Positions 887 to 14,909 of a stretch of 64,000 bases of DNA are shown here, one piece after another; positions within the stretch are counted from its first letter, which is position 1; each line of letters begins with the position of its first letter. Below the pieces are notes generated by a model. It did no database searches, was not told the DNA's origin, and worked only from the letters and a program-made list of their open reading frames with translations. A program made the translations under genes and the position numbers. The stretch comes from Brumimicrobium salinarum (GTDB lineage Bacteria; Bacteroidota; Bacteroidia; Flavobacteriales_D; Crocinitomicaceae): contig NZ_PJNI01000001.1 in the NCBI RefSeq assembly GCF_002844555.1, positions 496,001 through 560,000 of the forward strand, in the 5' to 3' direction.

Positions 887-991
887 TTTGTTTAATGTTT
901 TGCTTGTTTTGTTAAACAAAACTGTGCCAAAAGTACACAATTTTTAATTAAAAACAACAATGTCAAGAAAAACAATACTATTTTGTTTAAC
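887..991. promoter_or_regulatory. three TTTTGTTTAA-type operator-like sites around the sigma factor promoter
   Basis: The motif TTTTGTTTAA(C) occurs three times: plus strand 887-896, plus strand 981-991, and as a near-perfect palindrome GTTTTGTTAAACAAAAC at 906-922. The palindrome covers the predicted transcription start just downstream of the -7 element, a position where a bound repressor would block initiation. The best candidate ligand-responsive repressor is the CarH-like protein at 2049-2900. The pattern is seen directly; the identity of the binding protein is inferred. Confidence 0.45.
928..957 (-). promoter_or_regulatory. Bacteroidota sigma-A promoter of the sigma factor-crtI operon
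   Basis: Read on the minus strand: TTG (957-955), a 19-base spacer, then TACTTTTG (935-928). This matches the Bacteroidota consensus TTG-N19-TAnnTTTG exactly. The predicted start of transcription is near 921, about 40 bases upstream of the sigma factor ATG. Confidence 0.7.
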
Positions 992-1096
992 TTTTTTGTA
1001 ATAATACTAAACATAAAGCCTAATCGTATTTGTATTTGTGTATTTTATGCCGCTATGTTGTGTTTTAAAATACACATTGTTTTAGATAGCTCTGTA

Positions 1097-2900: not shown

Positions 2901-2940
2901 GTCATTAAAACAGATTAATCTCAATAAGGTTTAAGGTTTA

Positions 2941-2972
2941 CAAAGATAATTTAAACATTTTGTGTGTGACAA
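2941..2972 (-). promoter_or_regulatory. promoter of the CarH-like gene
   Basis: On the minus strand TTG (2972-2970), a 21-base spacer and the perfect -7 element TATCTTTG (2948-2941). The start of transcription would be near 2935, about 35 bases before the ATG at 2900. Confidence 0.55.
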
Positions 2973-13287: not shown

Positions 13288-14456
13288 TTAAGCGCGTGGA
13301 TTTGAAAAAGTATTTACATCAAATCCCGTAATTTCTTCATCACATAAAATCACCATGCGTTCAATGATGTTTCTTAGCTCACGAATATTTCCGCTCCAAT
13401 TTGTGTTTTTTAGTGCTTCTAAGGCATCTTCTGTGAATTTTTTTCTCGGTATTCCATGTTCCGCACAAGTCATGGTTAAAAAATGATCAGCTAGCATGGG
13501 AATATCATCCGTACGGTCATTTAAAGTAGGTACATGAATTAATATTACGCTTAATCGGTGATATAAATCCTCTCTAAAATTTCCTTCCTCAATTTCCTTT
13601 CTTAAGTTCTTATTTGTAGCAGCTATAATGCGTGGATTGACCTTGATGTTTTTTTCGCCTCCTACGCGTTGAATTACGTTTTCTTGCAAAGCCCGCAACA
13701 CTTTTGCTTGAGCTGATGCGCTCATGTCGCCAATTTCATCTAAAAACAAGGTTCCTTTTTTAGCCAATTCAAATTTCCCTTTTTTTGCTTTACAGCAGAG
13801 GTAAATGCACCTTTTTCATGTCCAAAAAGCTCACTTTCTATTAACTCTGCAGGTATAGCAGCACAGTTAACCTCAATAAAAGCTTCGTCTTTTCGAGGAC
13901 TATTGTCGTGAAGCGAACGTGCTACTAACTCTTTACCTGTTCCATTTTCTCCTGTAACCAAAACACGCGCTTCACTTGGCCCTACTTTTTCAATCATTTC
14001 TTTGATTTGAATAATTGCATCAGTTTCACCAATAATTGAAGAGCCCTTAAAACGTTGAACCGTCTTTTTTAAATTTTTCTTCTCTTCGACTAAGTTGTTT
14101 TTTTCACTCGCATTTCTAATGGTAACCAAAATACGATTCAAATCCAGCGGTTTCTCAATAAAATCGAATGCACCTAGCTTGATAGATTCTACCGCAGTTT
14201 CAATATTTCCATGACCTGATATCATGATTACAGGACTTTCAACTTTTTCTTTTTGAAGAGCGGTTAACACTTCCATACCGTCCATTTTAGGCATTTTAAT
14301 GTCGCAAAATATAACATCGTAATATTGTGAAGTGGCTTTTGTTAAACCTTCCTTCCCATCTTCTGCTTCATCTACTTCATAATCCTCAAACTCAAATATT
14401 TCTTTGAGAGCTCTGCGAATACTTTTTTCATCATCTATGACTAATATCTTGCCCAT
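13288..14456 (-). pseudogene. NtrC-type sigma-54-dependent response regulator, frameshifted at an A7 tract
   Basis: Receiver domain at residues 1-120 (ILVIDDE, phospho-acceptor D in [14 protein letters not shown] in FIEKPL), then the AAA+ sigma-54 activator domain: Walker A GENGTGKE and the GAFTSA loop. The frame breaks at the A7 tract 13786-13780. Downstream, in the -1 frame, Walker [11 protein letters not shown], the sensor and 'NWSGNIRELRNIIERM' continue to a stop at 13288. One extra A restores [16 protein letters not shown] and an uninterrupted 389-residue protein. It lacks a C-terminal Fis helix-turn-helix, as many regulators of this kind in the phylum do. The start is the ATG at 14456 ([11 protein letters not shown]). 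Sequencing error, real mutation or slippage rescue are all possible. Confidence 0.82.
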
Positions 14457-14909
14457 GGAAATTATTTTAATATCCAAAAATAATAAAGTTTAAGCATTTT
14501 AGTTCTAAACAAATGTCTAATTTATTTTTGAAGGTTCTCTTTTAGGATTTGTCACCATCTGTTCATTAAAATGTGAATGATCTTATTGTTTTTCCGTACT
14601 TGTTTATATATATGCACATATTTAAGTATCGTTCTATGCATTTGATGATTTTTGAAATTCCAAACCTGATGATTTTATTCAAATTATAAAAAGGCTCTTT
14701 GTAATTGTTACATTACTCAATCCTTCTCTATGCCTTATTTTACCAAATGTTAATTAACATGGAATTTAATTTGTATGTATTTGTTTTTAAGTTATTTGCT
14801 TCAACAGACCGTTTTTAAAAATTAACAACTCTATCAAATTATGTTTAATTTTTTTTAAGTTAATGCAACTTTATGTTGAGTTGCTCCGTCTCACTTAAAA
14901 AGATATAAT
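14457..14909. other. gene-free stretch with one perfect palindrome
   Basis: Divergent intergenic region of about 450 bases between the response regulator and the secreted-protein pair. It holds the perfect 14-base palindrome ATGTTAATTAACAT at 14747-14760 and a T8 run at 14849-14856. A TATTTTTG -7-like element (minus strand 14482-14475) precedes the regulator. Nothing else recognisable was found. Confidence 0.5.

Follow-up and report, generated by a model that had tools for sequence, protein, structure and literature searches.

CarH photoreceptors and the participation of an ECF sigma factor in light-induced carotenogenesis (Streptomyces) are both already known. In Streptomyces coelicolor, an ECF sigma factor was reportedly found by Takano in 2005 to direct light-dependent crt transcription; we take this factor to be LitS, controlled by LitR. 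The CarH/LitR protein of Thermus thermophilus (PDB 5C8D) combines a MerR domain with a B12 domain, has a lower-ligand His, and contacts the adenosyl group through its W-x9-EH motif (PMC9304148). Its operator consists of three tandem direct repeats, 11-bp units that contain TnnACA, and one dimer of the protein tetramer holds repeats 1 and 3, which lie 22 bp apart (PMC9304148). Such direct repeats contrast with the usual (pseudo)palindromic sites of MerR regulators (PMC8156234). The His that follows the Trp serves as the upper ligand after light (PMC10442372) and is found in many, not all, CarH homologues (PMC9304148); the H132A variant of T. thermophilus CarH was mostly tetrameric after light in one study, whereas an earlier study had reported disassembly (PMC10442372). 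In myxobacteria (CarH/CarA) and in Bacillus megaterium (CarH), B12-type MerR repressors likewise recognize direct repeats, within operators that overlap crt promoters (PMC9304148).

The Bacteroidota locus described here resembles the T. thermophilus system in its pair of MerR and B12 domains, W-x9-EH, the lower-ligand His and the TnnACA half-sites, but carries an inverted pair of half-sites 21 bp apart in place of the three tandem repeats, and lacks the post-light upper-ligand His in 124 of the 125 CarH-like proteins compared. With respect to symmetry, the candidate Bacteroidota operator returns to what is usual for MerR regulators, in contrast to the CarH direct repeats (PMC8156234). The locus shares with the myxobacterial and B. 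megaterium systems the B12-type MerR regulator and an operator overlapping crt promoters, but here the element also stands before sigma factor, rhodopsin, FAS1, folE and photolyase genes.

The analyzed window is a 64-kb part of contig C1 from the 3.41-Mb genome of Brumimicrobium salinarum. At its low end, the minus strand carries a gene for a CarH-like MerR/B12-binding regulator (2049-2900). Beyond a gap of 1.2 kb follow an ECF sigma factor gene (369-881, 170 aa, with orthologs in relatives) and the beginning of crtI (phytoene desaturase, 1-366). The sigma-crtI operon of the original prediction is real and extends past the window edge (locus L001), where it continues with crtB, a NUDIX protein that we read as idi, a split PTPS reading frame, a flavin reductase and a photolyase. 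The order carH-sigma-crtI-crtB-idi-flavin reductase-photolyase is the same in near relatives, and other families keep it with losses. Located after idi and before the flavin reductase, the gene for PTPS (6-pyruvoyl tetrahydropterin synthase) is divided into two reading frames of 68 and 50 aa (L001, 15116-15519), the first of which matches positions 2-54 of the 121 in the Pfam PTPS profile. Comparison across the genome also revealed an interspersed repeat, two copies of which (1095-1270 and 1806-1958) lie between carH and the sigma gene and widen the gap; 40 copies were scored among 111 candidates, with 84-100% identity, and 20 of the 40 are 98-100% identical across all or nearly all of the 176 bp. 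Elsewhere in the window, a response regulator with a sigma-54 interaction domain (13288-14477) is split across two overlapping frames that match profile positions 1-90 and 92-167, either an assembly error or a pseudogene.

The CarH-like protein is 283 aa long when read from the ATG at 2900 (a TTG at 2924 is also possible) and aligns with T. thermophilus CarH at E 3e-17. Its MerR winged-helix domain scores 51.2 bits against Pfam MerR_1 (cut-off 21.6) and contains the RxWExRY signature, of which R21, W23, E24 and R26 are present in all 125 CarH-like proteins and Y27 in 116. The W-x9-EH motif and the Rossmann-domain His that had been read from the sequence were confirmed as W139-x9-E149-H150 and the lower-ligand His187. 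All four of these residues are intact in 121 of the 125 proteins, and the lower-ligand His in 124. The four proteins with an incomplete set (L049, YEHH; L073, WERH; L074, YESE; L192, WERH) are possibly B12- or light-independent relatives.

Relative to the B12-binding motif D/ExHx2G/Px41SxT/Vx22-27GG, the protein of the window has E185-x-H187, S-x-V and GG in the right spacing, with Ser190 at the Gly/Pro position. It is no strict match to this motif (PMC9304148), which is matched strictly by 4 of the 125 proteins and in a looser form by 36. The Pfam B12-binding profile gives 23.4 bits, below its cut-off of 32.1. The NCBIfam CarH equivalog NF052513 is the best hit of its library at 103.2 bits, below the cut-off of 400; this is a narrow name model, and the missed cut-off weakens strict CarH orthology. 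The position of the upper-ligand His is occupied by V140 in the window, and a single protein of the 125 has His there. The regulator differs from described CarH proteins in the symmetry of its putative operator and at the position of the upper-ligand His; with its W-x9-EH motif it would still be predicted to work like CarH.

The promoter claimed for the sigma-crt operon is present on the minus strand as TTG (955-957)-N19-TACTTTTG (928-935), spanning 928-957, and we take it to be of the Bacteroidota type. Comparison with relatives places the main candidate operator downstream of it, at 887-920 on the minus strand, as TTTGTTTAAC-N14-ATTAAACAAA with half-sites at 911-920 and 887-896. The form conserved in relatives is TTTGTTTAAC followed by GTTAAACAAA, with starts 24 bp and half-site centres 21 bp apart. 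The element of the window has one mismatch to TTTGTTTAAC-N14-GTTAAACAAA, fits TTTGTTTAAY-N14-RTTAAACAAA exactly (hereafter, the strict form), and ends 5 bp ahead of the sigma start codon. A weaker operator-like module with three mismatches to the consensus lies upstream of the promoter (982-1015, minus strand), and two modules are also found in some relatives. Two further sites had been proposed along with the promoter. One of them, TTTTGTTTAAC at 981-991, exists as sequence but is better described as part of this weaker 34-bp copy; the other, TTTTGTTTAA, had been placed at 887-896 and lies at 886-895, one base away.

With starts 24 bp apart and up to three mismatches, the pair occurs in 21 of the 28 regions of 150 bp before sigma genes, the window included (0.035 expected from dinucleotide shuffles), and with up to four mismatches in 25 of the 28, other offsets giving 0-3 of 28 at up to three mismatches; a search of 59 relatives with up to two mismatches returned 68 operator sites and 11 control sites, and both counts are in part circular, the consensus having come from sigma upstream regions. 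In L040 and L042, the operator fits at an offset of 25. The score of the pair at 887-920 was unmatched in 2000 dinucleotide shuffles of its own region. All of our statistical tests ignore relatedness. Because the half-sites had been read from the same sigma upstream regions, two further sets were used. The second set was drawn from named records of Bacteroidota and comprises 80 CarH loci, of which only L211 lies on a contig of the first set. Here, sites with up to two mismatches number 26 at offset 24, four at offset 25, and zero or one at any remaining offset between 12 and 41. A search of 392 genomes of Bacteroidota found the strict form at 35 sites in 26 genomes, and its reversed control at none.

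Aligned over 65 sites, the operator is mirror-symmetric (TTTTGTTTAAY-n-WWW-n6-WWW-n-RTTAAACAAAA). The symmetry extends to columns outside those used for site selection, namely T at position -1 (74%) and A at position 34 (72%), as well as A/T tracts at 11-13 and 20-22. Each half-site contains TnnACA, with T26, A29 and C30 in 65 of 65 sites and A31 in 63, in a sample selected by similarity to the consensus. The idea of an operator readable directly from the DNA at the sigma-crtI promoter is supported by a 34-bp inverted repeat present in most relatives.

The putative operator is phased with the promoter. In the window, the -7 box (928-935) begins 15 bp ahead of the operator on the upstream side, as is the rule in the genus. 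Across the sites, 39 TAnnTTTG boxes lie no more than 30 bp from an operator, and 36 of them begin at -15, -4, +6 or +16/17 relative to its start, compared to a mean of 7.5 and a maximum of 15 in 300 shuffles, where the registers were picked after viewing the box positions and related sequences were counted separately. The steps between the four registers are of about one helical turn. Loci L043 and L211 share one contig, and L043 was for this reason excluded from the count; the two are kept among the 65 sites and the 125 proteins. A stretch identical or close to TTGGCAYRRTTNTG lies between the -7 box and the operator (917-931 in the window) and is conserved in the genus and some neighbours; upstream of the sigma gene, it is conserved in L035-L043 and L055, including cases where the -7 box is poor. 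Two other readings of this region were rejected: a sigma-54 (-24/-12) promoter in the genus-conserved TTTGGCAC beside the operator, where the GC of the -12 element is absent by eye, and a CRP/FNR site, for which a 34-bp dyad would be too long to be covered by one dimer.

The genes behind the element point to a light-related regulon. Among the 80 CarH loci, 38 contain 47 sites, 43 of which precede sigma, crtI, carH, FAS1 or DUF4397 genes. Outside the genome of the window there are 33 strict sites, and for 27 of them one of the two closest genes downstream is a light-related target (FAS1, 10; sigma, 5; flavin reductase, 5; crtI, 3; rhodopsin, 2; folE, 1; carH, 1). In both sets, the classes were assigned by BLAST against genes that had come up as targets before. 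At two more strict sites (L337, L341), a weak photolyase-like match lies about 220 bp off and another gene is closer; the remaining four (L317, L322, L329, L330) have no assigned light gene. Photolyase (G010, G032), dxs and folE (G050) are also found downstream of sites. For the examples scanned, Pfam agrees with the assignments (fasciclin, rhodopsin, GTP cyclohydrolase I, photolyase, DUF4397, SOUL, flavin reductase, DXP synthase). The original suggestion of looking near other light-induced genes, such as photolyase and crt, is thereby answered for the 34-bp element, which stands before photolyase, crt, rhodopsin, folE and FAS1 genes in relatives.

Rhodopsin loci in relatives have the element upstream in 9 of 14 cases and lack it in 5; another locus, L166, was dropped from this count as a spurious fragment (E 9.5e-4). 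Five of the nine elements have offset 24 with up to three mismatches, two have four mismatches, and two have offset 25 (L163 and, by eye, L167). One strict rhodopsin site (L331) has a beta-carotene 15,15'-dioxygenase gene on its opposite side. Just upstream of rhodopsin in three loci lies a match to the Rfam DUF805 / DUF805b RNA (RF03081, RF02914; L154, 1407-1475; L157, 1178-1246; L158, 1123-1158), a catalogued cis-regulatory RNA that is found here as a rhodopsin mRNA leader. The genome of the window has only two sites with up to two mismatches, one before the sigma-crtI operon and one before a FAS1 gene. This gene (L105, 3762-5312; G000:C23) encodes three fasciclin stretches and a secretion-system sorting domain. 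An algal FAS1 protein, AstaP, binds carotenoids (PMC10147662).

The distribution of the element follows that of the CarH-like protein, in line with the predicted CarH-type regulator gene near the operator. In the set of 392 genomes, 90 encode a CarH-like protein (E ≤1e-30 against the CarH alignment); all 26 genomes with a strict site are among these 90, and none among the other 302 (Fisher p ~1e-18, relatedness ignored), where the site and CarH searches were taken as one set on the strength of identical settings and handles, with 20 of the 302 CarH-negative genomes listed. Within the class, strict sites occur in 26 of 76 CarH genomes and in none of 29 without CarH (p ~5e-5, relatedness ignored). 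The 47 relatives with CarH at the same threshold have 65 sites against 4 control sites, and the 12 without it have 3 against 7; G028 (E 3e-4) and G040 (E 8e-4), which match in the DNA-binding domain only, were counted among the latter. Two of the three sites in CarH-negative relatives precede sigma (G035, 82% complete) and folE (G029, 59% complete), and CarH may simply be missing from these two assemblies. In G006, a member of the same genus with no CarH match, the sigma-crtI genes are retained and the operator site has decayed.

The strict form is absent from 64 of the 90 CarH genomes, and 42 of the 80 CarH loci have no site at the thresholds used. The element precedes carH itself in some lineages (G010, G032, G050, L232, L259, L328), with a site of up to four mismatches in only 8 of 40 carH upstream regions. 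In the window, a degenerate operator-like sequence with seven mismatches to the consensus precedes carH (2926-2959, minus strand); weak when taken alone, it has closer-matching counterparts at the corresponding position in L037 (four mismatches) and L038 (five).

In our assessment, 887-920 probably serves as operator for the CarH-type MerR repressor encoded nearby, a B12 photoreceptor that would keep a light regulon off in the dark. The element, its geometry, targets, promoter phasing and co-occurrence with a CarH-like gene are established at the level of sequence, and four other explanations have to be weighed against them. The original prediction placed the operator in a 17-bp palindrome at the transcription start point, a position suggested by the promoter. 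The palindrome does exist, as an exact GTTTTGTTAAACAAAAC at 906-922 that includes one half-site of the 34-bp element and has no second exact copy in the 3.41-Mb genome. It is unconvincing as an operator, because a genome search with up to two mismatches found it in 4 places, compared to 6 for the reversed control and hence with no excess over chance, and because at most 6 of its 8 arm pairs are kept upstream of the sigma-crtI operons of 27 relatives, against 8 of 8 in the window, while the pair with the 24-bp offset is kept in most. Copies pairing 7 of 8 are present in L070, but elsewhere in its region. Lack of the palindrome upstream of orthologous operons, as seen for those examined, is an outcome that the original prediction itself had named as refuting. 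Binding of the palindrome as a compact dyad is thus very improbable, and we rejected it. It is harder still to credit that the inverted repeats arose by chance, even though the region is rich in A+T and weak palindromes are plentiful there, given the results with dinucleotide shuffles, other offsets and reversed-pattern controls.

The remaining two explanations accept the 34-bp element and concern what reads it. Published CarH operators are direct repeats rather than inverted pairs, and another regulator might bind the repeat, with the CarH-like protein a mere co-occurring neighbour. We consider this improbable in view of the confinement of all 26 strict-site carriers to the 90 CarH genomes, the sites before carH itself in some lineages, the TnnACA in each half-site, and a spacing of 21-22 bp, nearly that of the two repeats (1 and 3, 22 bp apart) bound by one CarH dimer (PMC9304148). 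Alternatively, the CarH-like protein would bind the operator but sense AdoB12 supply or the redox state and not light, as might be suspected from the nearly universal loss of the upper-ligand His. This, too, seems unlikely, since the targets are light-related (photolyase, rhodopsin, crt, folE, flavin reductase), and W-x9-EH, the adenosyl contact in CarH (PMC9304148), is intact in nearly all proteins.

Under the preferred reading, in which the CarH-type repressor acts as a light sensor, AdoB12-loaded CarH would bind in the dark to two half-sites that face outward and are separated by two helical turns; these half-sites overlap the -7 box or sit one to two turns or less away from it. Bound CarH would stop transcription of the sigma-crtI-crtB-idi-flavin reductase-photolyase operon; light would break the Co-C bond of AdoB12, and CarH would leave, so that the operon is expressed. 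Through this one operator, many Bacteroidota may place their carotenoid, photolyase, folE and FAS1 genes under a common light switch, together with rhodopsin genes in those that have them. We infer dark repression, the roles of AdoB12 and light, and CarH binding from knowledge of the family and from the kinds of genes targeted.

The sigma factor had also been proposed as a second tier that may drive carotenoid genes. The ECF sigma gene lies under the candidate CarH operator, to which CarH is predicted to bind, and shares one operon with crtI and crtB. In S. coelicolor, where LitR presumably controls it, an ECF sigma factor reportedly directs light-dependent crt transcription; the difference is that the sigma gene here resides within the crtI/crtB operon. 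In some lineages (L218, L236, L241, L243, L259; L326, L332, L342), the operator directly precedes crtI, with no sigma gene between. An unlinked crtZ-crtY operon has no operator (the best match, in L294, has six mismatches), and inspection of crtZ-crtY upstream regions from eight genomes by eye recognized no operator and no common or sigma-dependent promoter. This operon would be the natural candidate for the second tier.

Light-induced carotenoids and crt genes have been described in Chryseobacterium lacus, where the authors, in their Discussion, report no car or lit operon and name no operator (PMC7064467). A metagenome-assembled genome labelled Chryseobacterium gleum (L259) has both CarH and the element in our set. 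Passages in two genome notes go no further than pointing out a MerR gene adjacent to crt genes (PMC5887021, PMC4732338). Excerpts from the open-access literature in PubMed Central contained no Bacteroidota operator of this kind and no CarH control of rhodopsin in this phylum, and passages of four papers (PMC9478572, PMC11855829, PMC10949492, PMC10979010) offered nothing decisive. Within those open papers, no regulator appears to have been assigned to the light control of rhodopsin and carotenoid genes in flavobacteria.

We tentatively suggest that Bacteroidota may possess a distinct branch of B12 photoreceptors that bind DNA as a dyad, with the symmetry of ordinary MerR dimers, and switch without a bis-His light state. 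Rhodopsin phototrophy, carotenoids, photolyase, the supply of pterins and an exported, possibly carotenoid-carrying FAS1 protein would all come under this one light switch. Being legible in a genome sequence, the 34-bp site makes the regulon predictable and testable. The comparison with the described systems suggests that one B12-sensor family can use the same half-site in a different operator symmetry, and it puts in question the generality of the bis-His light state.
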